Below, piece after piece: positions 12,201-54,352 of a stretch of 64,000 nucleotides of DNA. Source of the DNA: a bacterium (GTDB lineage: Bacteria > CAIWAD01); the NCBI GenBank assembly GCA_030429345.1, contig JAUIFJ010000001.1, positions 1-64,000 of the forward strand. Reading direction: 5' to 3'. The translations under genes and the position numbers were made by a program. A model generated the notes under the pieces. It searched no databases, was not told the origin of the DNA, and saw only the letters and a program-made list of their open reading frames with translations. Within the stretch, counting starts at the first letter, position 1; each line of letters begins with the position of its first letter.

Positions 12201-12580
12201 AGCTCGTTCCGGTTGGGTTTGTCCTCAAGATGCAGCACACGATCCGCGGTGATCGTCAGGTTCTTCTTTGCCGGGATCAGGTAGATGCTGCCCGGGTCGA
12301 TGGGCATGTTCTCCCGGACCTCGTGGATCGGCAGCCGCGTGTTCTTCGTCAGCAGCTCGGCCATCAGGGACTTGTAGTCGGGCGAGAGGTGCTGTACGAC
12401 AACGAAACTGTGAGGGCAGTCGGAAGGCACATGGTCGAAGAAGAGCTTCAGGGCCTCCAGTCCTCCGGCGGAGGTACCGATGCCGATGACGAATCCGTCA
12501 CTCATCGGATCACCGAGTGGAAGGGCAGACAAGGTGGAGTTAGAGGTCACGTTCTTCTCCGAAATGGAGGCTTGTGGCAC
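9287..12580 (-). CDS. CheB-CheR-PAS-histidine kinase fusion
   Basis: The 1097-residue signalling protein contains, in order: a CheB methylesterase domain (GTSAGG at 35-40 with the active Ser, then [20 protein letters not shown]); a CheR methyltransferase domain ([10 protein letters not shown]..., [13 protein letters not shown]); a coiled coil rich in [12 protein letters not shown] repeats; a PAS domain ([19 protein letters not shown]); and a HisKA/HATPase kinase with phospho-His near residue 883 ([15 protein letters not shown]), the N box NLLSNAIKY and G boxes DNGIGIP and GTGIGLA. It is probably a soluble sensor, since no membrane segment is evident. GTG at 12580 is preceded by GGAG. An internal ATG at 12505 is an alternative start. 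Confidence 0.9.
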
Positions 12581-38568: not shown

Positions 38569-39459
38569 CTATTTCACGAGCGTTAGCGCCCGCATCCGAA
38601 CGGCTCCCAGCGCCTCCAGTCGGACCAGGTATACACCGCTGGCCAGATGGCCCGCCTTGAACAGCACTTCGTGATCGCCAGCCGGACGATAGCCTTCGGC
38701 CAGGCGCTGCACAAGACGGCCTTGAAGATTGTATACCGCAAGCTCCACGCTCCCCGGACGGGCCAGGCTGTATCCCAGGCGGGTCGACGGATTGAAGGGG
38801 TTCGGCCGGGGAGCGGCCAGCACGAGGCTTTCCGGCCGGCGCGCCTGCTCGTCTACATCCACCGAAAAGCCTTCCAGGTCGACGACGCCATTGGTCATGC
38901 TAACGATGAAGGTGACCTGGTCCATGTCCGCCAGGAAGCCGCCATACTCCAGCGACAGGGAAGACTCGTCGCGGGCTGTGATTTCCAGGCCCGTCGGCAG
39001 GCCGATCAGTTTGTGCTCCGCCTCGACGGCCCCCAGGATCTCCTCGATGTCGAGGCTGTCGCCGATCTCCGGCAGGACCAGGGTGTCCGCGCGGTAGACG
39101 AAGAAGAATCCGCCTGTGACACCTGCCGGGCTGCCGAGGTTGAATCCCTCGGGCGCTGTCAGGAACATGCCCAGGGCGTCCAGCGTGGTGTCCGGGTTGA
39201 CCACCACGCTGGCCCAGAACAGCGTCTCGCCGGCCCCGGTGGAATCCGGGAACAGTGCACCCCCGACTCCCTGCAGGTCTTCTGGCGAAAAGTCGCTGGT
39301 GTCGATCATTCCCTCCGCGGCGAATGTGCCGCTGAAGCTTCCAAAGGGAAACTGCTGGTAATCGCAGGTCGTGGCACCCTGGAGGAAAACCGTGCTTTCC
39401 TGGGCATGAAGCGTCTGGCCGACAAAGAGCAGACTGAGAAAGAGAAGCAAGCGGGGCAT
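38569..39459 (-). CDS. Secreted protein with FlgD-like C-terminal sorting domain
   Basis: The 296-residue product has a signal peptide (MPRLLLFLSLLFVGQTLHA) and a beta-rich domain (residues about 25-215). The C-terminal FlgD-like Ig domain starts at APRPNPFNPSTRLGYSLARPGSVELAVYNLQGRLV and ends ASGVYLVRLEALGAVRMRALTLVK. That ending is the hallmark of surface or secreted proteins in FCB-related lineages. The N-terminal part was not recognised. The start at 39459 was chosen for its signal peptide. A 12-bp repeat array lies 126 bases upstream. Confidence 0.8.
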   Translation of the reverse strand: MPRLLLFLSLLFVGQTLHAQESTVFLQGATTCDYQQFPFGSFSGTFAAEGMIDTSDFSPEDLQGVGGALFPDSTGAGETLFWASVVVNPDTTLDALGMFLTAPEGFNLGSPAGVTGGFFFVYRADTLVLPEIGDSLDIEEILGAVEAEHKLIGLPTGLEITARDESSLSLEYGGFLADMDQVTFIVSMTNGVVDLEGFSVDVDEQARRPESLVLAAPRPNPFNPSTRLGYSLARPGSVELAVYNLQGRLVQRLAEGYRPAGDHEVLFKAGHLASGVYLVRLEALGAVRMRALTLVK

Positions 39460-39585
39460 GGAGGTTCCTGTTGTATGGAAATGTGCCCGCGAAGGGTATC
39501 GAAGCCGGAAGGGAATGGCAAGCGGGGAAGTAGGCAAGTGGATCTCTATGGGGAAGCTGGTGGGCGTCCCTCAAGGATGGTGCCA

Positions 39586-39872
39586 AGCACCGTCCCTGGC
39601 ACCGTCCCTGGCACCGTGCCTGGCACCGTCCTTGGCACCGTCCTTGGCACCGTCCTTGGCACCGTCCTTGGCACCGTCCCTGGCACCGTCCTTGGCACCG
39701 TCCTTGGCACCGTCCCTGGCACCGTCCCTGGCACCGTCCTTGGCACCGTCCTTGGCACCGTCCTTGGCACCGTCCTTGGCACCGTCCCTGGCACCGTCCT
39801 TGGCACCGTCCTTGGCACCGTCCCTGGCACCGTCCCTGGCACCGTCCTTGGCACCGTCCTTGGCGCCGTCCA
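39586..39872. repeat. 12-bp tandem repeat array A with 108-bp higher-order period
   Basis: About 24 head-to-tail copies of a 12-mer, GGCACCGTCC(C/T)T in the plus direction. One base position alternates between C and T. The variants follow the order T-T-T-T-C-T-T-C-C twice over (nine units, 108 bp), preceded by three C-type units and followed by two T-type units. One unit has GTGCC and the last reads GGCGCCGTCC. The 12-bp length keeps all six frames free of stops, so the ORFs through it are not evidence of coding. Array B (53690-54001) is the same family on the opposite strand. Confidence 0.95.
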
Positions 39873-40012
39873 TCAACCATACGGCAGGAAATGCCCTCCC
39901 GGCGGAGAGCAGCGGCCAGAATTACCCCGACGCTTCTCTTCTCGATCGAAGCCCGAACCCACATTATCAAGCACTTAACTCCCTGAAGAAGTTCTGAACT
40001 CCTGCATTCCCG

Positions 40013-40029
40013 CTGGCACGCCTCTTGCC
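40013..40029 (+). promoter_or_regulatory. Sigma-54 (RpoN) promoter
   Basis: TGGCACG at 40014-40020 and TTGC at 40025-40028 match the -24/-12 consensus (TGGCAC-N5-TTGC), with exactly 12 bases between the invariant GG and GC. Transcription would start near 40040, leaving a short leader with AGGAAGGA before the ATG at 40068. No sigma-54 activator gene is in the window. Confidence 0.65.
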
Positions 40030-40067
40030 ATTTATTCGGCGGAATGCTGTGAGGAAGGACTCTTGTG

Positions 40068-41513
40068 ATGACCCGAATTCTGTTGGCCGCGCTTTTGGCC
40101 TGTTCAACGCACTTGCCGGCGCGCGAACGCCTGCTCAACGACCCCATCTTCCTGGTCGACCTGCAGGCACAGCGCCTGGAGCTCGGAGGCCAAGGCTCCT
40201 ATTACAGTATAGACGAGCTGAGTACCCGCTTGGAAACGGCCAGCGGCATCAGCTACGGACTCAACGAATCCCTGCATTTCACCTTCTCGATCCCCTGGTA
40301 CTCGGAGGCCTTCGATCAGGAATCCAAGGCAGGCCAGGGCGACTTCGCCGCCTCGCTCACCTGGCACAGGCCCTGGTTCGGCAGCGAACGCTGGCGTTGG
40401 GGACTGCGCGAGACTTTGCGCTTTCCCACCGGCTATCGCGAGGAACTGGAAGGCTTCTCTTCCTTCACCAGCGGATCCACGCGCAGCGAAAGCCTGCTGC
40501 TGGTCGAACTGCGCGAACGGCGCTTCGTGATCGATGGACACCTGGGCTTTTCGCTCGACGATCGCAGGGAAGAGGTCCGCAACATCTGGGGCATCGGCCT
40601 GCGACAGGAACTGATCGGCGAATGGCTGATGATGGAAATGGAGATCGGCCAGGAGCTGGACCTGAAGAACAAGGACTACGACTACCAGTTCTACGCCGGC
40701 GCCCGCAGCCGTTTGCCCTTCGGCATCACACTCAAGTTCGGCGCTGAGCACCGCCTCTTCGACGGCGAGGACTCCTTCGGCGTATACGGAGGCCTGGGCT
40801 GGCACTTCCAGCCGTCGATCCCGGTCCGCGTGACACACCGGCACCTGCGCGAGAGTATGCGCGCGACCCTGGAGCGGAAGAACTCGACTCCCAGCCTGAG
40901 CCTTGAACCTGGATTCGGCGGCGCCGGAGACGAAAGCGCCATGAACCTCCCCCGGCAGCTGATCCGCGTGGCCGTCCTGCCCTTCGCGGACACCGGCGGA
41001 CACCCTGTATCACAGGATCTCTGGGAGCGCTGCCTGGAGCACTTCGAAAGCGACAGCAGCCTGAGCGTCGTGCCTGCGAGGGACCTGGAGCGCGCCATGA
41101 TCGAGGAGGGCGTCCGCGACCGTATACCGAACGAGCAGGAGGCCCTGCGGATCGCGGATCGCCTGCTGGCGGATTTCGTGGTCAGCGGGCGCATCCTGGA
41201 CAGCGAACCCGCCGAGCGCTCGGGCCTGGACCTGAGTCCGCTCCTGAGCCGGACACATTTCGAAAGCCGCTTGAGCGCCCTGGTCAACCTGGTGCAGGTC
41301 GGCGACGGCCGCGTGCTCTTCAAGGGCCGCATCGGCAGCAGCGCGCGCAGCGAGGCGAGCACGACCCTCTTCCATGCACGGGCGCACCATCGGGACACGC
41401 TCTTCCGCGCCACTCACCGCCAGCGGCTCTTGGAGAAAACCCTGGACGACTGGGCCGGACGCGCCCTGGACGAGCTGTTCTACGAATACAGCGAGCAACT
41501 GGTGGTCAAGTAA
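40068..41513 (+). CDS. Outer-membrane beta-barrel fused to a CsgG/TolB-like domain
   Basis: The 481-residue product has a signal peptide (MTRILLAALLACSTHLPA). Residues about 40-255 alternate like amphipathic barrel strands (SGISYGLNESLHFTFSIPWYSE, GDFAASLTWHRPWFGSERWRWGLRETLRFP, YQFYAGARSRLPFGITLKFGAEHRLFD). After a linker, residues 298-481 resemble the CsgG/TolB N-terminal fold (IRVAVLPFADTGG..., SLSVVPARDLERAMIEEG, ADRLLADFVVSGRIL...). The combination is unfamiliar to me. ATG 40068 was preferred to GTG 40065. A sigma-54 promoter lies upstream, and the TAA overlaps the next gene's ATG. Confidence 0.65.
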   Translation: MTRILLAALLACSTHLPARERLLNDPIFLVDLQAQRLELGGQGSYYSIDELSTRLETASGISYGLNESLHFTFSIPWYSEAFDQESKAGQGDFAASLTWHRPWFGSERWRWGLRETLRFPTGYREELEGFSSFTSGSTRSESLLLVELRERRFVIDGHLGFSLDDRREEVRNIWGIGLRQELIGEWLMMEMEIGQELDLKNKDYDYQFYAGARSRLPFGITLKFGAEHRLFDGEDSFGVYGGLGWHFQPSIPVRVTHRHLRESMRATLERKNSTPSLSLEPGFGGAGDESAMNLPRQLIRVAVLPFADTGGHPVSQDLWERCLEHFESDSSLSVVPARDLERAMIEEGVRDRIPNEQEALRIADRLLADFVVSGRILDSEPAERSGLDLSPLLSRTHFESRLSALVNLVQVGDGRVLFKGRIGSSARSEASTTLFHARAHHRDTLFRATHRQRLLEKTLDDWAGRALDELFYEYSEQLVVK

Positions 41514-43057
41514 TGAACTCCTCTCACGCCCATGCGCTGGCGCACCGGCTGGCGAGCTTCAGCCTGCTCCTGCTGGCCCTGTTGTCCTGTGCCCGCCTGC
41601 CGACGGAAAGCGACAACCTGCCCCCGGTCATTGTCAGCCTCAACCGCAGCGAGACCATTGTGAATGCGGGCAGCGAAATCCTCTTCACCGCCATCACGCG
41701 GGATCCGGACGGGGACAGCACGAGCACCCGCTGGGAAATCAACCGCGGCCAGTTCCTGAGCGTGGGCACGGATAGCGCCCTCTGGAAGAGCCCGGACTCC
41801 ACCAGCTATGTCCGTCTGATCTTTACAGTCGAGGATGCCCTCAACCAGGTCGAATCGGACACGAGCTTTTTCTGGGTCGAGAACCGCGCGCCGGTTTTCA
41901 CGCAGTTGGGACAGGAAAGCCTGAATGTGCTCAACGGCAACACGATCAGTCTCTGGGCGGAAGCGATCGATCCCGATTCGCAGCAGGTGGAGCTGCAGTG
42001 GCAGACACCCTTTGGCAGCCTGCAGCAGTCGAGCGGGGATTCCGTCCGCTGGACGGCGCCGGACAGCACCGTGCGCGCCTGGATCGCGGTGATTGCCCAG
42101 GACCAGTACGGCATCGAGACCACGGATACCTTGTTTGCGCAAGTCTATTCGGAAATCGGCTGCGTCTGGGTCATCGACCAGGGGAACGCCGAAGTGGTCA
42201 AGCTGAGCGCCGCCGGCGACGAGCTGCTTCGCATCGGTGGATTGGGCGATCCAATGGATCTGGACATTGATCCGGAAAACCGCCGGCTCTGGGTCTGCCA
42301 GGGCACGCCTCCGGTTCTCAAGGCCTTTGACCTGCAGGGCAACGAACTCTTCAGCCGCGAGGATCTCTTCAGCCATCCGGTTCGACTGCGATCGTGGTAT
42401 CGCAACGGAAGCGTCTTCGTGCTGGATGATGACAGCGCCCAGGTCGTCGAGGTGGCCTTCTCCGGGAATTCCGTCCGCAGACGCCTGGAGGGATTCGGGG
42501 ATCCGCTGTCCTTCGACCTGCACCAGAGAACCGGGAAGATCTGGGTCTGCGATCCCGGCGCCTACTCGGTCTGGCAGATTGATCCAGCCTTCGAGGGCAA
42601 TGTCAGCGGCGCGGATACCCTGAGCGCCGTCAGTCGGCACGGAGGCTTCCACTATCCCGTCGACGTGAGCGTCGAGGACAGCACGGGCGCCAGCTGGGTG
42701 GTGGACAAGGAACTGGGACTGCTGGTCCGCTACGGGGAAAGCGGCGAGGACAGCCTGATCGTTCCGGGCTTCAGCAATCCGGTGGCCATCGACGCGGCCT
42801 GGAGCGAAGGCCTGGTCTGGGTGCTGGATCGCGCCCTGGTCGGGCGGGCGGTGCGCCTCTTCTACAGCCAGCTGCAGGCGGAGGCCGACGACATCAGTTT
42901 CCCTAAAGCTCTGGCATACAATCGGCTGGATGATCATTGCTGGGTGCTCGATTCGGAGCGCAACCGGCTGTTGAAACTGAATCCGGATGGCGCGGTGGTC
43001 GGCTCCTGGACGGACTTCTATTTTCCGTCAAGACTGGTGATCAACTCCGGATATTAG
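41513..43057 (+). CDS. Lipoprotein with Ig-like domains and an NHL-type beta-propeller
   Basis: The 514-residue product has a lipobox (LLALLSC, Cys26). Two Ig/cadherin-like domains follow (residues about 35-215; DSTSTRWEINRGQFLSVGTDSALWKSPDSTSYVRLIFTVEDALNQ and a second like it). Six or more propeller blades end the protein, each with a WV-D pattern (GCVWVIDQGNAEVVKLSAAGDELL, RLWVCQGTPPVLKAFDLQGNELF, ASWVVDKELGLLVRYG, HCWVLDSERNRLLKL). It is probably attached to the outer membrane and partners the barrel/CsgG-like protein, whose stop it overlaps (TAATG). Confidence 0.8.
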   Translation: MNSSHAHALAHRLASFSLLLLALLSCARLPTESDNLPPVIVSLNRSETIVNAGSEILFTAITRDPDGDSTSTRWEINRGQFLSVGTDSALWKSPDSTSYVRLIFTVEDALNQVESDTSFFWVENRAPVFTQLGQESLNVLNGNTISLWAEAIDPDSQQVELQWQTPFGSLQQSSGDSVRWTAPDSTVRAWIAVIAQDQYGIETTDTLFAQVYSEIGCVWVIDQGNAEVVKLSAAGDELLRIGGLGDPMDLDIDPENRRLWVCQGTPPVLKAFDLQGNELFSREDLFSHPVRLRSWYRNGSVFVLDDDSAQVVEVAFSGNSVRRRLEGFGDPLSFDLHQRTGKIWVCDPGAYSVWQIDPAFEGNVSGADTLSAVSRHGGFHYPVDVSVEDSTGASWVVDKELGLLVRYGESGEDSLIVPGFSNPVAIDAAWSEGLVWVLDRALVGRAVRLFYSQLQAEADDISFPKALAYNRLDDHCWVLDSERNRLLKLNPDGAVVGSWTDFYFPSRLVINSGY

Positions 43058-43274
43058 CCATCTATGATTTAGTGTGTTTTTGTAGCAAGTCGAACAATTT
43101 TTACAGTATAGTTTAGTTCTTGCCTCATCGGTAGCATGGGGGATCTCCACCACTCCGGCTGGCGATCTTGCCGCCTTTCTGCAACCTTCTGGAAATGATG
43201 GAAGCCCAAGTCGCGCCTTCCATGAGTCGATACTTCCGGAAACCGACCCCGTCCGAAGGCAAAGGGAAGACCAT

Positions 43275-43979
43275 ATGAGCAGTTCACTGGTTCAGACCAT
43301 GAAACCACTGGTTCCATCCTTTCTGAGACGCTTTGTCCGCAAGGCACAGGAACGACACATCTTCTTCGAAGCCTATCGCGAGTATCTGGATCTGGATCCG
43401 ACGCTGATGCCAAGTGAGGAGTTGCTCAACCGCCTGGTAGAAGGCTGGGGGAACCAGGGCTTCTCCGCCTGGTCCGACTATCTGCACGCCTGCCTGGCGG
43501 CCCTGGCCGAAAGCCCGGGAGCGGTCGTCGAGTGCGGTTCCGGCCTCTCCACCGTCCTGATGGGCGCGCGCGCGCAGCGTCTGGGCAAGGAGGTGGTCGC
43601 CCTGGAACACCACCACAAATGGTTCCCGCGCATGCAGTATCGCCTGCGCAAGCTGGGCATTACAGGCGCGCGAGTGGCGCACGCTCCCTTGAAATCCTAC
43701 GATGGCTTCGACTGGTACGATGTCCGACAGACCAACCTTCCGGGGCAGATTCATGTGGTGATCTGCGATGGTCCGCCCTCGAAAACCCGCGGCGGTCGAG
43801 TAGGCATGCTTCCCGTACTGCGCGACAGGCTGGCGCCGACCTGCCGCATCCTCATGGACGACGCGGCCCGGGAGGAAGAGCAGGCGATCATGGATCTATG
43901 GGCCAGGGACTTCGGCCTGATCCAGATTCCCCACGAAGGAGACAAACCCTGGGCGGAAATGCGCTTCGCCACCTCCTAG
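43275..43979 (+). CDS. Class I SAM-dependent methyltransferase-like protein
   Basis: The 234-residue product has the SAM-binding loop VVECGSGLSTVLMG, an acidic strand end EVVALEHHHKWF, and IHVVICDGPPSKTRGGRVGMLPVL in the motif IV position. This is a pattern seen in small class I methyltransferases of unknown target. No membrane segment is visible. Its TAG overlaps the stop of the convergent DUF4105 gene within a CTAG palindrome. The 217 bases before it contain no gene. Confidence 0.7.
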   Translation: MSSSLVQTMKPLVPSFLRRFVRKAQERHIFFEAYREYLDLDPTLMPSEELLNRLVEGWGNQGFSAWSDYLHACLAALAESPGAVVECGSGLSTVLMGARAQRLGKEVVALEHHHKWFPRMQYRLRKLGITGARVAHAPLKSYDGFDWYDVRQTNLPGQIHVVICDGPPSKTRGGRVGMLPVLRDRLAPTCRILMDDAAREEEQAIMDLWARDFGLIQIPHEGDKPWAEMRFATS

Positions 43980-44992
43980 GGACCGATCGCCTTTCGCACC
44001 GACGACCGGCGAATGCTTTGCGAAAAGGCCCGGGCATTGTCCGTGGCCACCCCTTCCCGCGAGAGGCGATAGGCCTCCAACCCTTCCGGCAGCGCCTCCG
44101 GCAGATCCAGCAACCCGACTTCCTGGGCCATCTCCGCGGAATAGCCGGGGAGCAGCAGGCGCCAATCCCAAAGGTTCAGCGGCTCTTTTCGCTGGGAATT
44201 GACCAGCCAGGCGATCTGCGTCGTACAGGAGCTGTGTATGGTGTGGTAGAAGCGCGGCTCCTCTTTGAGCCGATTGGCCTGGTGCAGCAACTCCATGAAC
44301 AGCCCCTGCATCTTCTCCCGCGGCGTCTTGACCGGGAATCGATAGATCGGATCCCCCTGGGCCAGCAGACGCAGCGCCACCAGGTCCAGCTCATCGGCCA
44401 GCACATACATCAATTCAAACTGCCTGTACATCCCGGGAAGAACGGCATAGGGCACATTCGGCCCTCTTCGGGCTTCAATGGACAGGCAAACCCGCTCTCC
44501 TCCCGCAAAGCCGAAGCTGAGCATGGCGTGGGCAACGGCCTTGGTCTCCGCAAAATAGACCAGGTAGTAGTCCATGCTCTGCAGGCTGTCCAGGTGCACT
44601 TCAAGATTCCGCCAACCGGCTTCCGGAGTGGCCTCGTCGGGCCAGCGAAAGGCGCGCAGGTCCTTCAGGGCTATGCGGCCTTCCGGCTGCAGCTCTGCGC
44701 CGGGAAGGCGGGATTGTTCGGGTCGCCAGGGCCCTTCACCAGTAGGTGACGCACTTGCCCAAAGCAGAGCTGTCGCCAGAATGGCTCCACCCTGCATCTG
44801 CAGACGCCGTCTTCGTGCCAGGGGAAAGAAAGGCAGCAGCAGGCTCATCCACAGAAGGGCAGCCCCCTTGCCCAGCAGATCCGGCCCAGGCAGCAGGAAA
44901 CGCCAGACGCCCGCCGCCCAGATCCAGCCCGGTGCGAGGAAGAGGAGGATCAGCAGGCGCGGCAACATGCGCCTAGCGGTGTAGAATGCCAT
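43976..44992 (-). CDS. DUF4105 membrane protein
   Basis: The 338-residue product has three N-terminal hydrophobic segments (LPRLLILLFLAPGWIWAAG; GAALLWMSLLLPFFPLA; GGAILATALLWASAS). A periplasmic domain follows with DYYLVYFAETKAVAHAMLSFGF, VLPGMYRQFELMYVLADELDLVALR and YHTIHSSCTTQIAWLVN, matching DUF4105 (Lnb N-terminal periplasmic type). These resemble papain-like or amidase folds, with HSSC..Q as a candidate active region. It overlaps the TetR-type gene upstream by 20 bases. Confidence 0.8.
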   Translation of the reverse strand: MAFYTARRMLPRLLILLFLAPGWIWAAGVWRFLLPGPDLLGKGAALLWMSLLLPFFPLARRRRLQMQGGAILATALLWASASPTGEGPWRPEQSRLPGAELQPEGRIALKDLRAFRWPDEATPEAGWRNLEVHLDSLQSMDYYLVYFAETKAVAHAMLSFGFAGGERVCLSIEARRGPNVPYAVLPGMYRQFELMYVLADELDLVALRLLAQGDPIYRFPVKTPREKMQGLFMELLHQANRLKEEPRFYHTIHSSCTTQIAWLVNSQRKEPLNLWDWRLLLPGYSAEMAQEVGLLDLPEALPEGLEAYRLSREGVATDNARAFSQSIRRSSVRKAIGP

Positions 44993-45731
44993 GCATGAAG
45001 AGGCGGAAGATCTCGTCGGCCATTTCGCGGGCGCTGCGCATTTCCTCCTTGCGCAGGAAGGCTATGGTGTAGACTCCGATCGCCTCCACCAGAATCCGCG
45101 CCACCTGCTCCGGGTCGCAGGGAATGAACTCGCCTCGCCGGCTGCCGCGGGCAATGATCGAACTCAGCTTGTCCTCGAAATCCTGGCGGGCGTCCAGGAT
45201 GCCCAGTTGGGAATCGCTGGGCTGATTCAGGTGATTCCGGTCACGGAACTGGCGCAGAATGAAGAAGAAGTCCGTGTTTTTCCGGTAGTAGATCAGCAAC
45301 AGCACAACGATCGCCCGCAAGTTGTCGCTCATGCTGCGTTCGGCGCGGAACTCCTTGTCCATGATTCCGGCCAGATCGATCAGCCCCTCTTCCAGGATCG
45401 TATGGTAGAGGTGTTCCTTGTTGCGGAAATACTGGTAGAGAGTCGGCTTGGAAAACTCCGTCAAGCGCGCCACTTCATCCAGCGTCGTGCCGGCAAAGCC
45501 CTGCGAGGCGAAGAGGCGCTTGGCGACCAGCAGGATTTCCCGTCGCCGGAACAGGCGTTCCCGCTCGCGGCGGCCAAGGGGCTCCTCCTTGCGGGGAGAG
45601 TCGGCCCTGAGTGGGACCAGCCCGGAAGCGGCCGGCCGAGTGAGCTCGTGAAGAGCGGGGGAAGAAGAAAGGGGGTACGAAGATGCCTGTTCGCGCTTCA
45701 GGTCGATTTTGCGGGACGAGGAAGATTCCAC
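44973..45731 (-). CDS. TetR-family regulator
   Basis: The 252-residue frame contains a TetR DNA-binding domain (RREILLVAKRLFASQGFAGTTLDEVARLTEFSKPTLYQYFRNKEHLYHTIL) and a TetR_C-like domain (LRAIVVLLLIYYRKNTDFFFILRQFRDRN). About 50 residues precede the domain (MESSSSRKIDLKREQ...), longer than usual, so the true start may be downstream at a non-ATG codon. It may regulate the overlapping DUF4105 gene. Confidence 0.85.
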   Translation of the reverse strand: MESSSSRKIDLKREQASSYPLSSSPALHELTRPAASGLVPLRADSPRKEEPLGRRERERLFRRREILLVAKRLFASQGFAGTTLDEVARLTEFSKPTLYQYFRNKEHLYHTILEEGLIDLAGIMDKEFRAERSMSDNLRAIVVLLLIYYRKNTDFFFILRQFRDRNHLNQPSDSQLGILDARQDFEDKLSSIIARGSRRGEFIPCDPEQVARILVEAIGVYTIAFLRKEEMRSAREMADEIFRLFMHGILHR

Positions 45732-46078
45732 ACTTGACTCACTGGTAGAAGAGCACTGTCACAACCGTCAAGAACGAGGCGAAAGTAGGAGTTTCTCTTT
45801 CAAAATCAAATACTTTACTACTCGGTACAAAGCGCTACCAAGCCGTAACGGTGTACCAGTGGCTGCCAAATCCTCCGCTCGGCAGGGCTTGGTCTCCACC
45901 CTTTGCCGGCCCCTAGCGAAAGCCGGACCCGCGCAGGGGGAGGAATTCCCGACTGGTCATTTTCTCTTGAAAAAGAGTGGCCGGATCGCTTGAGTACTTT
46001 GCGAGAAAGCCGATGTAAACGGCAGGGCCCGATCGCAAGGATCGACGCCCACCTTCGACATAAAATGACGGATCCCCC
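45732..46078. other. Intergenic region, no feature recognised
   Basis: The stretch between the divergent TetR gene and the small membrane-protein gene has locally AT-richer sequence (around 45790-45840) that could hold promoters. I see no gene, hairpin with T-tail or clear operator. Confidence 0.4.
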
Positions 46079-46348
46079 ATGCTCTGGACCGCACTTGCCA
46101 TTCTGCTTCTCTTGTCCATTCCAGGCACCAGTCTTTATATCGCGCATCGCAATCTTCGCCGACGCAGCAACCGCCAGCAGGCCCTGGCAGGTGAACTGGA
46201 GAAACTGGAACACTACCTGCAGCGCCAGAAACGCATCGACCTGTTGAAGGTGCAAGAACAGGACCTGGGTCTGGAGCGTGAATGCAACGCTTTCCTCGAC
46301 GCCTGCTATTCATTGATTCGCGAGGACGACAGCTCCCGCCGATCCTGA
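46079..46348 (+). CDS. Small membrane-anchored coiled-coil protein
   Basis: The 89-residue product has one N-terminal hydrophobic segment (MLWTALAILLLLSIPGTSLYIAH) followed by basic residues and a coiled coil (RQQALAGELEKLEHYLQRQKRIDLLKVQEQDLGLE). No family was recognised. The composition and single-anchor layout look real, but there is no independent support beyond that. It lies 66 bases before the nucleotidyltransferase gene. Confidence 0.5.
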   Translation: MLWTALAILLLLSIPGTSLYIAHRNLRRRSNRQQALAGELEKLEHYLQRQKRIDLLKVQEQDLGLERECNAFLDACYSLIREDDSSRRS

Positions 46349-46414
46349 GGACTTTGAGCGAGACCGTTCCAATCGCCACTTTCCCGGCAGTATCCTGTTC
46401 AATCGGAATCCCAG

Positions 46415-47746
46415 ATGCCGGGCCCCTTCGCCCCCGAGCGCCTCTACAAGGGCGCACTCACCATTCTGACAACCCTGCGCGAGGCGGGCCACGAGGCCTA
46501 CATCGCCGGCGGAGCTGTGCGCGACCACCTGCTGAACCGCCAACAGAACGACCTGGATCTTGCCACCTCCGCGACTCCTGACCAGATCCGGCCGCTCTTC
46601 AAACGGACCTTTTCCATAGGCGAAAGCTTCGGTGTCATTCTCGTCCGCATGCAGGGACGCGACTACGAAGTGGCCACTTTTCGGGAAGACCAGGACTACC
46701 GCGACGGCCGCCGCCCCGCTTCCGTGCGCTTCAGCACGGCGCGTGAAGACGTGCTGCGTCGGGATTTCACCATCAATGGCATGCTCTGGGATGCGGAACA
46801 GGAACGGGTCCTGGACTGGGTCGGGGGCGAAGAGGATATTCGGCTGCGGCGCGTCCGGACCATCGGCCGGCCTGAGGAGCGCTTCGCCGAGGATCGCCTG
46901 CGCATGTTGCGTGCGCTTCGCTTCGCGGCCCAGTTGGACTTCGAGATTGAGGAGCAGACCTGGGAGGCGATCTGCCGCCAGGCGGATCGGCTGGAAGAAG
47001 TCAGCACCGAACGGATGAGGGACGAGCTCCAAAAAATCCTGTTGGCTCCCTGCGCGCGTCGCGGTTTGGCGCAGCTGCGCGAGAGCGGGCTTGAATCCGC
47101 GCTGAAGCAACGGTTCCTGAAGAATTACAATGAGTTGTGCAAAGCAACCAGCCGCCGCGACAGGCTGAATGGCAGCCTGCAAGGATTGTTTCCTGAATCC
47201 GGCGTTGCCGAGGAACTGGACGGCTGGCTGCTGATCAACTGCAGCCTGCTCTGTGGCATGCCACCAGAGAATGGTGGCACAATCAAGCTGGATGGTTGGC
47301 GCGGCCTACTTCATGGAGTTGATAAGAAACTGTTTTGCAGTGAATTGTACCGGCTTTCTCAAGCACAAAAACAATCCAATGATGCCTGTCGCGTCCTGAG
47401 CGAAACGGCGGAGCTCTGGTTCGACCTGCAAGGCCTGAAGGGCTGCCGCCTGGCGGATCAACTTCGCCTCTTGCGCTCGCGGGAGTGCCATCGCCTTCGG
47501 CGTCTGTTGCCGATCCTGTGCGGCGAAGAGGCCGTGGAGCTGGAACAGTGGCTGCACGAGCTGGAAACGCGGCACGGAAGCGCGCTGCACCCGAGGCCCT
47601 GGCTCAACGGCCATGACCTGATCGCCCTGGGCGCGCCACGCGGTCCGGTGTTGAAGACCCTGCTGCGCGAGCTGGAGAGCGAGCAGCTGGAAGGGCGCCT
47701 GGCGAGCCGCCAGGAGGCGGAATCCTTCGCAAGAGCGCGCCTCTAG
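46415..47746 (+). CDS. CCA tRNA nucleotidyltransferase / poly(A) polymerase family
   Basis: The 443-residue class II nucleotidyltransferase has YIAGGAVRDHLLNRQQNDLDLATSATPDQI, with the GG and DxD metal-binding motif. VATFRED, RRDFTINGMLWD (motif B-like) and RFAEDRLRMLRALRFAAQLDFEIE (the neck domain) follow. It either adds CCA to tRNA 3' ends or polyadenylates RNA, and sequence alone does not decide. No HD domain is evident. The C-terminal half is divergent. Confidence 0.9.
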   Translation: MPGPFAPERLYKGALTILTTLREAGHEAYIAGGAVRDHLLNRQQNDLDLATSATPDQIRPLFKRTFSIGESFGVILVRMQGRDYEVATFREDQDYRDGRRPASVRFSTAREDVLRRDFTINGMLWDAEQERVLDWVGGEEDIRLRRVRTIGRPEERFAEDRLRMLRALRFAAQLDFEIEEQTWEAICRQADRLEEVSTERMRDELQKILLAPCARRGLAQLRESGLESALKQRFLKNYNELCKATSRRDRLNGSLQGLFPESGVAEELDGWLLINCSLLCGMPPENGGTIKLDGWRGLLHGVDKKLFCSELYRLSQAQKQSNDACRVLSETAELWFDLQGLKGCRLADQLRLLRSRECHRLRRLLPILCGEEAVELEQWLHELETRHGSALHPRPWLNGHDLIALGAPRGPVLKTLLRELESEQLEGRLASRQEAESFARARL

Positions 47747-47836
47747 CGCCAGGGGGCTCCGTCCGGCTTTGGCCTCTGGCGGTTGGCTGAGCTATATTCT
47801 GCGCTTCACCCCGGCACACACGGATCCTGGAGAGAC

Positions 47837-48973
47837 ATGCTATCCCTGAGCCGCAAGCGCAAGCTGCAGATTCCGCTCTATACGCTGATCGGCTTGTGTG
47901 TCTTTGCCTCGGTGCAAGCCATCTGGTGGGTCAGCTTCCAGGTGCGCGAGGGGCAGCAATACCTGGAACTGAACCTGAAGCTGCTGGAAGAGCGCGTCCG
48001 CCTGGCGGAGCAGGAATTCAGCACCCTGGATTCGCTGAGCCAGGTGGATCGGGTCGCCTTCGAGCATCGCTACGACGGGCTGACCCTGGCGATCAGCGAC
48101 CGCTTTCCCAGCGGCTATGCTCCGGTGATTTCGCCGGAACGCCAGCACAGCATCTGGAAGGAGAGCCGGCGCCGGGTGCGCATGTTCGCCCTGGAAGGCA
48201 TGGTCTTCATTCTGGTCCTGGGGTTGGGAGTCTGGTTCCAGGCTCGCGCCTATCAGCGTCAGTTGCACGCCTCGGAACAGCAGAGCAACTTCGTCAGCGC
48301 GGTGACGCATGAGTTGAAATCCCCGCTGACCTCGATTCGCCTCTTCGGTGAACTTGCCGGGCGCGACGGACTTCCGGCAGCCAAGAGAGCGGAGATTTCG
48401 AAACAGATCCTCTCCAACGCGGACCGCCTGAAGGACCTTGTCGACCAGATCCTCCAGGCGCGCAAGCTCGAAGAGGAGCATCTGAAGATCCAGCTGCGCC
48501 CGGTGAAGCTCGAGCACTGGCTCGCGAGTTGGGCCGAGCGGTCGGAACCGGTGGCGCGCGCGCACGGCTTCGAATGGGAACTGACTCTGAACCACTCCAG
48601 TCGCGTGGTACTGGCGGATCCGGTAGCCCTGTCCAGCGCGCTGGACAATCTGCTGAGCAATGCCATGAAATACAGCCCGGGCAAGGGAAGGATTCGCGTG
48701 CAGCTCGATTTTCCTTCCCACTTCGCCGAGTTGTCCCTGAGCGACGAAGGGGTCGGCTTTGATGAGGTGGAAGGGCGGCAGCTCTTCGAACGCTTCTATC
48801 GCGCGGGCAATGAAATGACGCGCCGGACGCGAGGAACCGGCCTGGGCCTGTTCATTGTAAGGGAGCTGATGGCGCAGATGCACGGCAAGGCCCTGGCCGA
48901 AAGCGATGGCCCGGGTCGGGGCGCCCGTTTCAGCCTTCTGCTGCCGTCCCGGCCCGAAGAAGGCGCAGCATAG
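47837..48973 (+). CDS. Sensor histidine kinase
   Basis: The 378-residue product has two membrane segments (residues about 13-33 and 119-136) around a short periplasmic loop. A HisKA domain carries His158 (FVSAVTHELKSPLTSIRLFGEL), and a HATPase domain (DNLLSNAMKYSPGKG, GTGLGLFIVRELM) follows. Its response regulator is 75 bases downstream. Like PhoR/BaeS-type kinases it probably senses an envelope or external signal. The ATG at 47837 follows GGAGAG. Confidence 0.93.
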   Translation: MLSLSRKRKLQIPLYTLIGLCVFASVQAIWWVSFQVREGQQYLELNLKLLEERVRLAEQEFSTLDSLSQVDRVAFEHRYDGLTLAISDRFPSGYAPVISPERQHSIWKESRRRVRMFALEGMVFILVLGLGVWFQARAYQRQLHASEQQSNFVSAVTHELKSPLTSIRLFGELAGRDGLPAAKRAEISKQILSNADRLKDLVDQILQARKLEEEHLKIQLRPVKLEHWLASWAERSEPVARAHGFEWELTLNHSSRVVLADPVALSSALDNLLSNAMKYSPGKGRIRVQLDFPSHFAELSLSDEGVGFDEVEGRQLFERFYRAGNEMTRRTRGTGLGLFIVRELMAQMHGKALAESDGPGRGARFSLLLPSRPEEGAA

Positions 48974-49048
48974 GGACCCGGTCCCGACAGACAGAAATTC
49001 AGCAGGCCTGCCAGACAGGCAAGAACAGCCAAGGGAAGGGTGACGGAC

Positions 49049-49756
49049 ATGCCCAGGATTCTTCTGATTGAAGACGAACAGGATATCGCCAGCGGGATCG
49101 TGATGAACCTGGAGCTGGAGAACTACGAACTGCAGCACGAGGATGATGGCGAAAAGGGCCTGGCGGCGGTCGAATCAGCCAAACCGGACCTGATCCTGCT
49201 GGATGTGATGCTCCCCGGAATCGACGGCTTTGAAATCTGCCGTCGCATTCGCGAGGCGGGTAACCGGGTGCCGATCCTCTTCCTGACGGCCAAGGACCTG
49301 GAAGAGGATCGTGTGCGCGGCCTGGAAGCCGGAGGCGACGACTATCTGCCCAAGCCCTTCGGCATGAAGGAGCTGATCGCCCGCATTGAAAGCATTCTGC
49401 GTCGGCAGAGCTGGTACGAGAAGGCCCTGCCCGAAATGCCAAAGGATGAATTCGGCGGCAACAAGGTCAATTTCGAAGCCTACGAAGCGCAGAACTTCAA
49501 CAACGAGCGCATCCGGCTGACCCAGAAGGAATGCATGCTGCTGCGGCTGCTCATGGAGAACGAGGGCCGGGTGGTCGAGCGCAGCGAAATTCTCGATCGG
49601 ATTTGGGGCACCGACAACTATCCCAGCACGCGAACAGTGGACAACCTGGTCCTGCACCTGCGCAAATACTTTGAACAGGATCCCGCCAAACCCCGGCATT
49701 TTCTTTCCGTTTATCGCGTGGGGTATCGTTTCACCCGGCAGGCGGCTGCAGAATAG
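49049..49756 (+). CDS. OmpR/PhoB-type response regulator
   Basis: The 235-residue product has a receiver domain (ILLIEDEQDIASG, phospho-acceptor Asp52 in LILLDVMLPGIDGF, FLTAKD, LPKPFGMKEL). A winged-helix DNA-binding domain follows (NERIRLTQKECMLLRLLMENEGRVVERSEILDRIWG, RTVDNLVLHLRKYFE). It is the partner of the kinase just upstream. ATG 49049 was chosen; a GTG at 49040 would add three residues. Confidence 0.94.
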   Translation: MPRILLIEDEQDIASGIVMNLELENYELQHEDDGEKGLAAVESAKPDLILLDVMLPGIDGFEICRRIREAGNRVPILFLTAKDLEEDRVRGLEAGGDDYLPKPFGMKELIARIESILRRQSWYEKALPEMPKDEFGGNKVNFEAYEAQNFNNERIRLTQKECMLLRLLMENEGRVVERSEILDRIWGTDNYPSTRTVDNLVLHLRKYFEQDPAKPRHFLSVYRVGYRFTRQAAAE

Positions 49757-49810
49757 CCGGTCATTCTGCCGATACGCGTACCAGAACCATTCAGGATGGA
49801 CAGGTGCAGT

Positions 49811-50239
49811 ATGGCAGCCCCGGAATTTCTTGAGTCCGACAAGGCCTTTGTTTTTTTGCGCAAAGGCGATCTGGAATCCTACAATCGGGAAGTCGTCTCT
49901 CGCGGCGGCAAGATCCACTTCACTAACGCGAACCTGCGCGGAGTGGATTTCCGCAGCGTGGACACGGAATCCCTCTACCTGACGGCCTGCTATCTGCGGG
50001 ACGCCGACCTGCGCGGCTGCGACATACGCCACTGGGACCTGGAAGGCACCTCCCTGCATAACGCCCACATCAGCGGCACCTATTTCCCGGACGATGTGGA
50101 GGCGGAGGAAATCCGCCTGAGCGTCGACCAGGGAATCCGCATCCGCACCCGGGTCAATCATCGCGTCGTGGTGGGCCAGGTCAAGAAAAAGCCTGCTCCT
50201 CCCACCAACGACCCTCCCCAGCCCGAGTACGACCGCTAG
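49811..50239 (+). CDS. Pentapeptide-repeat-like protein
   Basis: The 142-residue product contains consecutive five-residue steps (FTNANLRGVDFRSVDTESLYLTACYLRDADLRGCDIRHWDLEGTSLHNAHISGTYF), consistent with a right-handed quadrilateral beta-helix of about two or three coils. A basic, Pro-rich tail follows (VKKKPAPPTNDPPQPEYDR). Pentapeptide proteins have varied roles and no specific one can be assigned. It follows the two-component genes on the same strand. Confidence 0.75.
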   Translation: MAAPEFLESDKAFVFLRKGDLESYNREVVSRGGKIHFTNANLRGVDFRSVDTESLYLTACYLRDADLRGCDIRHWDLEGTSLHNAHISGTYFPDDVEAEEIRLSVDQGIRIRTRVNHRVVVGQVKKKPAPPTNDPPQPEYDR

Positions 50240-50400
50240 ATCGACCTCAATTCACTCACAAGAGTCTCTCCGGGGAACCCTGCGCCTCATATGGAATAAC
50301 AGGCTTGGCTATCTTGCATGCCTTGGCGCAACCGAACCGCTGCTCCAGACCGACCGGCCTCCGGCCCTTTCGGCCTGGTCCGGCCTCCGAAGGAACCCTC

Positions 50401-52248
50401 ATGCTATCCGTTCTTGCTTCCCTGCTGCTTCTCTTCGGGTCGGCCTTCGCCGGACCCGGCGCAGAGGCTCCCGACACTTTTGACCCCGCGGAGGCGGTAC
50501 CGGTCGAGATTCTGCTCTCCCACGACCCGCTGGTCCCGGGAGAGCCTGCCCGACTGGCCGCCGTCTACCATGTGCCGGACCTGTACCACATCACCGACAT
50601 CGCCAACGGCCTCTTCTACCTGGAGGCGGATACCCTGGACGGCCTGCGCCTGGACAATGTGCGCTATCCGGAAGGGCTGATCGACGAACACGGCGACCGG
50701 GTCTATCGCGGGCAGGTGGTTGTCACCGCCGACATCCATCTACCGGAAAGCTTCGACGGCGGCTTCCCGTGGAATGTATACGCCGGCTTCCAGGTCTGCA
50801 GCGAGACCGGCGCGCTGACCTGCTACCTGCCCGTGGATCACGTCTTCGAGATGGAGCTGAACCTGGGCGACGACCCGGCGGAGATGGAGCCGCGTCACAC
50901 GGAAATCTTCGAGCAGGACGCGGCAGGCTCGACCGACGCCGGCGAAGGGCTCGAAGGGCGTCTTTCCAATGCCCTGGAATCCGGCAGCTTCCTGGCCTTC
51001 CTGATCGTCTTCCTGCTGGGCCTCTTGAGCAGCCTGACTCCCTGCGTCTACCCCATGATCCCGATCACCATCAGTTTCATCGGCGCGCGCAGCGGCAGCA
51101 GCAAGTTCACCGGGTTCATCCAGTCCTGCTGGTTCGTGCTCGGCATGGCGCTGGTCTTCAGCAGCCTGGGCGTGATTGCCGCGGCCACTGGCGGCGTCTT
51201 CGGTGCGGTCGGCCAGTCGCCGGCCTTCCTGATCGGCCTGGCGGTGATTTTCCTGATCCTGGCCACCAGCATGTTCGGCGCTTTCGAGCTGCAGGTCCCC
51301 AGCGCGCTGCTGGGCAAGATGACCGCCACGCCGACCACCGGCCTGCAGGAAGGCAAGGGCCCGAGCCCCTTCGGCGCCATGTTCATGGGCGGCGTGACGG
51401 GCTTCGTCGCCGCGCCCTGCGTCGGTCCGGTGATCGCCACCCTGCTGGTCTTCATTGCCAACACGGGCAACCTGCTGCAGGGCTTTTTCCTGATGCTGGC
51501 CTACGCACTGGGCATGGGCACGCTCTTCCTGGTGATCGGCACCTTCGCCGGGGCGATGAACGCCCTGCCCGGCGCCGGCAGCTGGATGGAAACCGTCAAG
51601 CACTTCTTCGGCGTGGTCATGGTGGCCATGGCGCTGTGGTTCCTGCGCACCCTGATTCCGGCCGAGGTGATGGTCTACCTGGTCGGCGGCGGACTGGTGA
51701 TCTTCGGCGTCTACTGCGACGCCTTCACCCAGCTCAAGGAAGACGCGGGCAAGGGCGCCAAGTTCATCAAGGCCGTCGGCCTGATCGCGGTGCTGATCGG
51801 CGCGCGCTACCTGATCTGGGGCGTGGACGGCCCGGCGGCGACCGTCGTAAGCGCCGGCGGCGGAACGGTGACCCAGGCCCATGCCGAAGTGCCCTGGACC
51901 GTGGCCTCGCCGGAAAGCAACATCCAGGACCAGCTGCTGAACAGCGCCGTGCAGGCCGGCAAGCCGGTGATCATGGATTTCTGGGCCGAATGGTGCGTGC
52001 AGTGCAAGGAACTGGATCACGAAACCTGGTCCGACCCTGCCGTCATGGCTGAGGCCGAGCGCTTCGAGACCGTGAAGATGGACATGACCAAGACCGGAAG
52101 CGACTGGGCCAGGGCCGCCAACCAGGACTACGCCATCGTCGGCATGCCGACAGTGATCTTCTTCGACAGTTCCGGAGAGGAAGTCAAACGCTTCAACGGC
52201 TTCCACAAGGCCGACAAGGTTCTCGAATGGATGAAGGCCGTGCGCTAG
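50401..52248 (+). CDS. dsbD: DsbD-type protein-disulfide reductase
   Basis: The 615-residue product has a signal peptide (MLSVLASLLLLFGSAFA) and an N-terminal periplasmic domain with two Cys (FQVCSETGALTCYLPV). Eight membrane segments follow, with the redox Cys of LLSSLTPCVYPMIPITI and FVAAPCVGPVIATLL, and then a C-terminal thioredoxin domain with WCVQC. It passes electrons from cytoplasmic thioredoxin to periplasmic thiol proteins. The DCC thiol protein at 6027 is the only other thiol-redox gene seen besides ahpF. Confidence 0.94.
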   Translation: MLSVLASLLLLFGSAFAGPGAEAPDTFDPAEAVPVEILLSHDPLVPGEPARLAAVYHVPDLYHITDIANGLFYLEADTLDGLRLDNVRYPEGLIDEHGDRVYRGQVVVTADIHLPESFDGGFPWNVYAGFQVCSETGALTCYLPVDHVFEMELNLGDDPAEMEPRHTEIFEQDAAGSTDAGEGLEGRLSNALESGSFLAFLIVFLLGLLSSLTPCVYPMIPITISFIGARSGSSKFTGFIQSCWFVLGMALVFSSLGVIAAATGGVFGAVGQSPAFLIGLAVIFLILATSMFGAFELQVPSALLGKMTATPTTGLQEGKGPSPFGAMFMGGVTGFVAAPCVGPVIATLLVFIANTGNLLQGFFLMLAYALGMGTLFLVIGTFAGAMNALPGAGSWMETVKHFFGVVMVAMALWFLRTLIPAEVMVYLVGGGLVIFGVYCDAFTQLKEDAGKGAKFIKAVGLIAVLIGARYLIWGVDGPAATVVSAGGGTVTQAHAEVPWTVASPESNIQDQLLNSAVQAGKPVIMDFWAEWCVQCKELDHETWSDPAVMAEAERFETVKMDMTKTGSDWARAANQDYAIVGMPTVIFFDSSGEEVKRFNGFHKADKVLEWMKAVR

Positions 52249-52273
52249 GGCATTCTGATTTCGACACATACGC

Positions 52274-52308
52274 AAGACGCCGTCCACGTGACGGCGTCTT
52301 TTGTTTTG
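52274..52308 (+). terminator. Intrinsic terminator after dsbD
   Basis: AAGACGCCGT pairs with ACGGCGTCTT around a CACGTG-containing loop and is followed by TTGTTTT. Confidence 0.9.
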
Positions 52309-52492
52309 GACATGTCCGGTAGACTGGACGGCAGCTCAAAGCCCGCGCCATGAGGTTGTGCGTGCAGGATCGAAACCCCCTCCGCCACAAACTGTCCAAT
52401 TCCGCAGCCGGTGCAGGTTCCGCTCCTTCGCGAGTTCCGGCGACGACTCGCTTGCACACACAGCTCCCGCCAGCAAACGAAAGGAGACGCTC

Positions 52493-53677
52493 ATGCGCTG
52501 CGTCCTGCTCCTGCTCTTCGCCACACTGCTCCATGCCGAGGTCCTGGTCGAGACCGTCACCCAGGAATCCTTCGAGGGCAGCGGAGGCGTTTGCCTGGGG
52601 CCGGATGGGAATCTCTATGTGGGCGACTTCGGCATTCGGCTGAACAACGCCAACGGGACAACAGTCAAACGGGTCCTGCCCGATGGCAGCGTGGAGACCT
52701 TCGCCAGCGGGATGCTCGGAGCCAGTGGCAACGACTGGGGACCGGATGGCAATCTGTACCAGTCCAACATTGCCGGTGCGCGGATCATGAGGATCACTCC
52801 AGAGGGCGAGGCCAGCATCTTCGCCACCGGCGTCAGCAGTCCCGTGGGCTGCGTCGTCGCTCCGGATGGCAGCGTCTATGCCACCAACTGCCAGAATCCG
52901 GGTGCCATCGACCACATCAGCCCGGAAGGCGTGGTCACGGAGCTGGTGCGGGACGACCTGCTCTCCTGCCCCAACGGCTTGACCATGGACGACGAAGGCA
53001 TCCTCTACACCTGCAACTTCAACAACGGGGATGTCCTGCGGATCACCCAGGCCGGCGAGATCAGCCTGGTCGGCTCGATTCCCAGCACGGCCTGCGGCCA
53101 CCTGACCTGGGCCAATGGCGGACTGTACGTTGTCGGACGCTGTTCGAACCGCATCTATCGCATGGAGCTGGACGGGACCGTTTCCGTGCTGGCCGGCTCG
53201 GGGGTCCGTGGAGTGCAGGACGGCACGGCGGTCGAGGCGCGCTTCTCCACGCCCAACGGCATTCGCGCCAGCCTCACGGGCGACACACTGTACGTCAACG
53301 ATAGCGTCGACCTGGGTGGCGGCTGCTACAATGGCGACCTGAACCCGGTAGTCGTCCGGCGCATCATCAATGTGCTGGAAACGGTGGCGGTGGCCGAACC
53401 ACTTCCGCAGCCAGGACAGTTCTCCCTGCACCCGGCGCAGCCCAACCCCTTCAATCCGACAACGCGCATCCGCTTCGACCTGGCCCTGGCCTTGCCGGTC
53501 AGCTGGGGGCTCTTTGACCTGGCCGGAAGCCGCCTGCATCGCATGGACCTGGGCCAGCTGCCGGCAGGCGCGCACGCCATCCTGATTGACGGAACGCGCC
53601 TGGCCAGCGGCACTTACATCGTCGAGGTCGAAGCCGGCGGAGCAAAGGCCGTGGAGCGGATTACCCTGCTGAAATAG
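52493..53677 (+). CDS. Secreted SMP-30/NHL beta-propeller with FlgD-like C-terminal domain
   Basis: The 394-residue product has a signal peptide (MRCVLLLLFATLLHA) and a propeller with blades of the PDGNLYVGDFG type (GGVCLGPDGNLYVGDFG, GNDWGPDGNLYQSN, GCVVAPDGSVYATNC, GLTMDDEGILYTCNF). The C-terminal FlgD-like Ig domain starts HPAQPNPFNPTTRIRFDLAL and ends SGTYIVEVEAGGAKAVERITLLK. It is probably secreted or surface-attached. AAAGGAG precedes the ATG at 52493. A 12-bp repeat array starts 13 bases after its stop. Confidence 0.88.
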   Translation: MRCVLLLLFATLLHAEVLVETVTQESFEGSGGVCLGPDGNLYVGDFGIRLNNANGTTVKRVLPDGSVETFASGMLGASGNDWGPDGNLYQSNIAGARIMRITPEGEASIFATGVSSPVGCVVAPDGSVYATNCQNPGAIDHISPEGVVTELVRDDLLSCPNGLTMDDEGILYTCNFNNGDVLRITQAGEISLVGSIPSTACGHLTWANGGLYVVGRCSNRIYRMELDGTVSVLAGSGVRGVQDGTAVEARFSTPNGIRASLTGDTLYVNDSVDLGGGCYNGDLNPVVVRRIINVLETVAVAEPLPQPGQFSLHPAQPNPFNPTTRIRFDLALALPVSWGLFDLAGSRLHRMDLGQLPAGAHAILIDGTRLASGTYIVEVEAGGAKAVERITLLK

Positions 53678-53689
53678 GCGGGAATGGTG

Positions 53690-54001
53690 CCATGGACAGT
53701 GCCAGGCACGGTGCCACGGACGGTGCCAGGGACAGTGCCAAGGACGGTGCCAGGGACAGTGCCAGGGACGGTGCCAGGCACGGTGCCACGGACAGTGCCA
53801 GGGACGGTGCCAAGGACGGTGCCAGGCACGGTGCCAGGGACGGTGCCACGCACGGTGCCAAGGACGGTGCCAAGGACGGTGCCAAGGACGGTGCCAGGGA
53901 CGGTGCCACGGACAGTACCAGGGACGGTGCCAAGGACGGTGCCAGGGACAGTGCCAGGCACGGTGCCAGGGACGGTGCCAGGGACGGTGCCAGGAACCAG
54001 G
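53690..54001. repeat. 12-bp tandem repeat array B
   Basis: About 26 head-to-tail copies of a 12-mer whose plus-strand form is (A/G)GTGCCA(A/C/G)G(G/C)AC. The reverse complement is the array A unit, so the two arrays are inverted relative to each other about 14 kb apart. It is more heterogeneous than array A: position one alternates A/G, position seven varies, and one unit has GTACCA. No 108-bp order as clean as in array A was seen. Confidence 0.95.
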
Positions 54002-54076: not shown

Positions 54077-54352
54077 TCAGTTCAGGTAGCGACGGTCCAC
54101 CAGCGGCATGTTCCGCAGGGAAGCGGCGCAGAGCCGGTTTCGTTCGCTGACTGTCTTATCGGTACGCAGCAGCCATTCTTTTAGGCTCTTGCGCGCCGCA
54201 GTCGCTTTTTCGACGGGAATCTGCAGGCGGTCCAGCAGGTGGATCATGCGGCCCAGCACGGCATCGGCGGCCAGCATGTCTCCGGAGCTGAGTTCGAAAT
54301 GGAAACGCGAAATCATCTGCTCCAAATACCCGTCGCCGTTTTCGCATTTCAT
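54077..54352 (-). CDS. Small hypothetical helical protein
   Basis: The 91-residue product (MKCENGDGYLEQMISRFHFELSSGDMLAADAVLGRMIHLLDRLQIPVEKATAARKSLKEWLL...) looks mostly helical and soluble. No family was recognised. The internal ATG at 54352 follows GGAAGGG at moderate spacing, and an alternative ATG at 54370 would add six residues. It is divergent from icmF. Confidence 0.5.
   Translation of the reverse strand: MKCENGDGYLEQMISRFHFELSSGDMLAADAVLGRMIHLLDRLQIPVEKATAARKSLKEWLLRTDKTVSERNRLCAASLRNMPLVDRRYLN

Follow-up and report, generated by a model that had tools for sequence, protein, structure and literature searches.

Two tandem arrays of one 12-bp unit in the window

The window, a 64,000-nucleotide stretch (positions 1 to 64,000 of contig JAUIFJ010000001.1, assembly GCA_030429345.1) from a bacterium of the GTDB lineage CAIWAD01, contains two tandem repeat arrays, A and B. 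Both are probably copies of a dispersed minisatellite that is specific to its lineage and linked to REP-associated tyrosine transposases (RAYTs; REP, repetitive extragenic palindrome). Repeat finding and unit matching agreed with the original prediction that both arrays belong to a single 12-bp family in inverted orientation, the unit GGTGCCANGGAC running head-to-tail on the minus strand at array A and on the plus strand at array B. Tandem Repeats Finder delimited array A at 39587-39871 (12 bp x 23.8, 95% match) and array B at 53686-53994 (12 bp x 25.8, 86% match). The window held 60 matches to GGTGCCANGGAC with at most 2 mismatches vs 10.8 ± 3.2 in shuffles, and an exact 57-bp run was common to array A and reverse-complemented array B.

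39592..39867, minus strand: array A, 23 units GGTGCCA[G/A]GGAC of 12 bp, holding a 9-unit higher-order repeat (p=0.013)
53686..53997, plus strand: array B, 26 units GGTGCCANGGAC of 12 bp
39575..39595, plus strand: hairpin predicted by folding, with a 9-bp stem and a 3-nt loop, where array A ends in an inverted unit

The inverted terminal unit of array A occupies 39579-39590 with 1 mismatch. The units were head-to-tail without the unique spacers of a CRISPR array, and the window gave no match in Rfam.

Dispersal through intergenic sites of the host genome

Genes of the 4.24-Mb host genome (G000; C numbers denote contigs and L numbers analysed stretches) were called with a simple codon model. 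A 30-mer of the array unit had 650 matches in this genome, 623 of which lay in the 41 arrays located in targeted stretches. The arrays comprised 751 units overall, and none of the 41 fell in a called gene, though the coding fraction of the flanking sequence was 0.88 (88%); convergent, divergent and tandem gaps were all used. The arrays break the assembly, about two thirds of those located lying at contig ends; the array lengths there are incomplete, and the true lengths may exceed those counted.

Array orientation showed no bias toward the strand of neighbouring genes (31 co-oriented, 25 not) or toward GC skew (21:20). An RNA or transcription-strand role was rejected for lack of orientation bias, the even split for GC skew gives no replication-strand bias, and the proposed RNA-RNA pairing between the two transcripts found no support, array orientation being unlinked to gene strand or GC skew.

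With a single short unit arranged in tandem at many intergenic loci, the family has the features of a dispersed minisatellite of the short tandemly repeated repetitive (STRR)-like class. STRR sequences of heterocystous cyanobacteria have 7-bp units, and bacterial variable-number tandem repeat (VNTR) loci usually have unrelated units. The present arrays are like STRR and VNTR sequences in that a genome carries tandem copies of one short unit between many of its genes; STRR sequences are not known to have a linked transposase.

Unit anatomy and internal turnover

Position-by-position counts over the 751 re-phased units showed that nine of the 12 positions were 97.5-99.7% constant, with variation nearly confined to position 1 (G/A/C), position 8 (G/A/C) and position 10 (G/C). 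Rare alleles stood at about 1% whether a position was constant or variable, a pattern consistent with a small number of old polymorphisms to which new mutations have been added. Unit composition differed between arrays (p=3e-19), three arrays including A (9 units) contained a higher-order repeat, and deviation from the unit was 0.5% in the interior vs 2.4% and 4.8% in the end units; the differences in composition, the higher-order repeats and the decay at the ends are signs of internal turnover. Block copying between arrays was tried as an explanation and rejected, the order of unit variants being barely more shared than in shuffles.

The main unit GGTGCCAGGGAC is not itself a palindrome, and neither it nor its complement contains GTAG or GTGG; GTGG occurred only in minor units with C at position 8 (58 of 751). 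As DNA, the array body folded no better than shuffles (z -0.8 and +0.4). Three arrays (A, L038 and L063) finish in an inverted unit, located 3' on the strand that reads GGTGCC; there it forms predicted terminal hairpins whose stem measures 9-12 bp and whose loop measures 3 nt.

The unit has no stop codon in any of its six frames, one of which reads VP[G/R]T. The combination A8-C10 was seen 2 times vs 36 expected, a deficit that this frame would explain; the missing combination needs no coding, because close linkage of sites 2 bp apart suffices. Peptide-coding arrays were rejected on the grounds that no array lies in a called gene and two third-codon positions are fixed.

Arrays in related genomes and gain at existing gaps

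The analysis covered four genomes of this bacterial family, the host G000 and three from sister genera (G001, G002 and G003). Among 386 genomes searched for spaced GGTGCC triplets, all four family genomes had many and others few, with none in the class-mate G004. The GGTGCC core is common to the units of the four, which are otherwise species-specific. The unit measures 12 bp in G000 and 11 bp in the relatives, being of the GGTGCCAGG[T/C]C type in G001 and G003 and GGTGCCGGTG[T/C] in G002; the arrays of G001-G003 were likewise intergenic, save one at a contig end. Two 11-bp arrays had other units, CCGGGGCAAGC and GGGGTTGCCCG, at L223:1171-1288 (G002 C281) and L080:3223-3379 (G001 C5), period 11 being retained while the sequence differs. 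The 12-bp array itself was found nowhere in G001, G002 or G003, had no match in viral contigs, phages or plasmids, and in its exact form was absent from other GTDB genomes apart from a Planctomycetota stretch (L071), whose three units lie in a coding-looking low-complexity stretch and were judged coincidental.

At the locus of array A, both G001 and G003 keep the FlgD-C-terminal-domain (CTD) gene and the two genes to the right of the array in the same order and orientation without an array, and the words GGTGCC and GGCACC are absent from the corresponding gap. The motB-fliM gap, which carries an array in the host, has conserved gene order and no array in G001, G002 and G003. Since gene order is kept without the array in the relatives, the array was most likely added to an existing gap. 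The inverted copies had raised the possibility that the A-B segment inverts; no evidence for this was obtained from the assembled sequence, in which rare isoforms could escape notice, the gene pair around A stands in the same order in G001 and G003 without the array, and arrays A and B are one pair among about 41 arrays. Judged from this gene order, the segment proposed to invert most likely retains the ancestral arrangement at its left edge.

RAYT genes beside short-unit arrays

The observation that the window lacks a REP-associated transposase was borne out, no Y1 transposase being found there, and the suggested search elsewhere in the genome yielded ten Y1 (PF01797) genes, including one RAYT bordering an array. 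This gene, on contig C59, scored 85 bits against NF047646 REP_Tyr_transpos (cut-off 80) and keeps the HUH histidines and the catalytic Tyr, with H73, H75 and Y133 invariant in 8 homologues; a profile including it matched the TnpA-REP structure 4er8 (E=2.7e-5) and IS200-type TnpA. An array ends about 160 bp upstream of the gene.

Only a protein search was used to collect the RAYT loci of the family, and arrays therefore played no part in the choice. An 11-12-bp array lay at most 400 bp away at five of the 11, namely G000 C59, G001 C100 (on both sides), G001 C6 (3.9 copies), G002 C83 and G002 C281. Six arrays lay in 8.2 kb near RAYTs vs none in 18.0 kb further off, an excess with a chance probability of about 0.001, which becomes 0.003 when the locus with two arrays is scored as having one. 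In the RAYT tree, G002 C83, G001 C100 and G002 C281 formed one clade with three different units, as expected if every RAYT owns its repeat.

Several loci stood out. At G001 C100 (L229, C100:1-1098), the RAYT lies between two like-oriented arrays of one 11-bp unit, as if inserted into a single array. Outside the family, G249 has a 12-bp GGTGCCAG[A/C]CAC repeat near a RAYT, with a separate longer tandem repeat of the tgtcattccgggcttgacccaaca type at about 950-1250 of L215 (G249 C56) near the same gene; G102 has a GGTGCC cluster adjoining a RAYT, and G165 and G079 have GGTGCCWGGCACC palindromes adjoining theirs. Within the host, a RAYT paralogue in L102 (C75:129000-132500) is tightly bounded by 10-bp inverted ends CCTGGACACT/AGTGTCCAGG, which exceed the array core AGTGCCAGG by one base. 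Another RAYT-like Y1 gene in L104 (C55:1-3000) adjoins another family of repeats. Its members are hairpins such as gggtcgNtcgcgaNcgaccc, which also occur beside 12-bp arrays in L056, L059 and L065 and look like a classical palindromic REP family. Three IS200-type Y1 genes, in L098 (C8:76121), L099 (C9:115641) and L100 (C46:127112), are each ringed by their own inverted repeats, listed as tgcaggtgaaacctgca and cggccgttgcacggccg; gcgaccgctacgcggtcg; and gctgcgggc.

Genes beside arrays A and B

38569..39459, minus strand: secreted protein with a type IX secretion system (T9SS) type A / FlgD-like CTD, neighbour of array A, 5' end toward the array
40113..41513, plus strand: no family match, other neighbour of array A, divergent from 38569-39459
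52493..53677, plus strand: Vgb/SMP-30/NHL-type propeller plus FlgD-like CTD, neighbour of array B, stop 8 bp before the array
54077..54352, minus strand: short predicted gene beyond array B, convergent, a codon-model call only

The distance from the stop at 53677 to array B, previously given as 13 bp, measured 8 bp. The gene at 38569-39459 (minus strand) scored 23.7 bits against TIGR04183 (cut-off 23), while that at 52493-53677 (plus strand) scored 20.4 bits against TIGR04183 and 24 bits against FlgD_ig, both slightly under the cut-offs. A CTD profile built from the host genome's own CTDs and applied to all called genes gave 89.5 bits and 72.2 bits, respectively; together, these scores upheld the assignment of an FlgD-CTD gene beside each array. 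The host genome encodes at least 150 proteins that carry a T9SS type A sorting domain; for one of them the open reading frame spans 5166 aa (C75:219261). The genome-wide search for the 12-mer and the tally of flanking genes proposed with the original prediction revealed widespread arrays with no bias to secreted genes, and the idea that the repeats are tied to secreted CTD genes did not hold: a CTD was present in 6 of 55 array neighbours vs 21 of 297 other genes at the same loci, no excess above background (Fisher p=0.40). The CTD-type neighbours at both window arrays are best taken as coincidence. Beside array B, 54680-57889 of the window also contains a gene for the fused isobutyryl-CoA mutase/GTPase IcmF (NF045497, 1803 bits).

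Origin of the arrays

These results suggested that arrays A and B belong, as is fairly probable, to a RAYT-linked minisatellite confined to this lineage, and that the arrays are most likely RAYT-propagated DNA rather than regulators of neighbouring surface genes. The dispersal of the unit and its RAYT neighbourhood were observed directly, from which we infer that a RAYT moves the arrays. In the proposed mechanism, the RAYT, an HUH-Y1 single-strand nuclease, would cut single-stranded array DNA, probably at the hairpin of inverted units, and would join a short multimer into another intergenic site, after which replication slippage and unequal exchange would set the array length and mix the unit variants. 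A wider proposal, put forward tentatively and with more doubt than confidence, is that in the RAYTs of the family the part of the mobile repeat is played by an 11-12-bp tandem minisatellite instead of a palindromic REP, each RAYT having its own unit spread by single-strand cutting and joining, with unit and period shifting between genera. Several points weigh against propagation by RAYTs. Transposition of the arrays was not seen, and RAYTs could be inserting into arrays instead of spreading them. A clear inverted unit closes just 3 of the arrays, the C59 RAYT is accompanied by an array on a single side and lacks a pair of inverted flanks, and the RAYT-side unit is not always the main dispersed unit of its genome (G001 C100 and G002 C281). 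Outside the family, a short-unit array was present at 1 of 34 RAYT loci, plus 1 of 8 in G249, and the commonest flank motif at 29 homologue loci of other genomes was GGGGTCAG (14 of 29) and not GGTGCC, giving no support for GGTGCC as a general motif of RAYT homologues.

An unlikely but substantial alternative is that slippage and ectopic recombination spread the arrays as they would any minisatellite, the RAYTs being bystanders or inserting into such arrays as open, repetitive, single-strand-prone targets. Edge decay, array-specific composition and the higher-order repeat in array A are usual for slippage, and the G001 C100 RAYT between like-oriented arrays fits either this account or propagation by RAYTs; slippage alone, however, is unable to put one unit at 41 intergenic sites, the poorly shared order of unit variants speaks against simple block copying, and RAYT-side arrays recur with different units in three genomes. 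It is improbable that the arrays serve as functional DNA elements with many binding sites for a nucleoid or regulatory protein, in the way that bacterial interspersed mosaic elements (BIMEs) bind gyrase. The constancy of nine of the 12 unit positions, with only positions 1, 8 and 10 variable, and the dyad symmetry of the constant part would suit such a role, but rare alleles at about 1% everywhere are accounted for by old polymorphisms and new mutations, the unit differs between sister genera, and no bias to gene orientation or skew exists. The account on which the repeats accompany surface genes of the T9SS/FlgD-CTD type, and exert their effect when the A-B segment inverts or engages in RNA pairing, draws on the CTD-type neighbour at both window arrays and on the exact 57 bp between A and reverse-complemented B; considering the neighbour counts, the ancestral gene order at A and the lack of strand bias, it is very improbable.

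Comparison with known RAYT-linked repeats

REPs are imperfect palindromes of about 20-65 nt with a GT[AG]G foot, occurring singly or as spaced inverted pairs (PMC2817692, PMC8266576, PMC6006769). The arrays resemble the REP/BIME and RAYT (TnpA-REP, REPtron) systems in their many short intergenic repeats of lineage-specific sequence, in the position of a repeat beside an HUH-Y1 RAYT gene, and in the occurrence of several RAYTs with their own repeat each (PMC2817692, PMC8266576, PMC6006769). They differ from REPs in having a non-palindromic 11-12-bp unit, head-to-tail in 7-35 copies. The REP-like nature originally suggested was upheld in part: the high intergenic copy number (at least 41 arrays, 751 units) and the RAYT with an accompanying repeat (C59 and 5 of 11 family loci) stood, while the GT[AG]G foot was absent, the stem-loop of a 20-40-nt imperfect palindrome was lacking, with hairpins at only 3 inverted-unit array ends, and inverted repeats flanking the RAYT were missing, with like-oriented arrays on both sides at G001 C100 and one side occupied at C59. 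The arrays are therefore not classed as REPs.

TIRtrons (TIRYTs) are RAYT-like genes within terminal inverted repeats with a GGGGWSAS motif (PMC3733652). They share the transposase superfamily with the present system, and the GGGGTCAG-rich flanks of homologues elsewhere and the inverted ends of the C75 paralogue are comparable; in contrast, the C59 RAYT has tandem arrays instead of inverted ends. The tandem REP/REPIN clusters of Pseudomonas fluorescens SBW25, with 72-112 bp between whole REPs and 184 bp per pair (PMC3116915), are alike in that repeats linked to a RAYT stand in tandem at several loci and in either orientation, whereas the period here is 11-12 bp. No description of RAYTs with units this short was found in the literature searched, where coverage of RAYT-group work is incomplete.

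The arrays bear on the spread of REPs by RAYTs and on the retention of RAYTs by their hosts. An 11-12-bp tandem unit as a RAYT-linked repeat, with units differing between sister genera, would reveal what a REP can do without, and a RAYT-linked minisatellite would connect bacterial minisatellites with domesticated HUH transposases, which have been treated as separate phenomena. If true, the use of tandem minisatellites by RAYTs would be a new repeat architecture for a domesticated transposase.

Elsewhere in the window, degenerate 21-bp (7-codon) repeats occupy 10396-10543 within a large gene at 9287-12505 on the minus strand.

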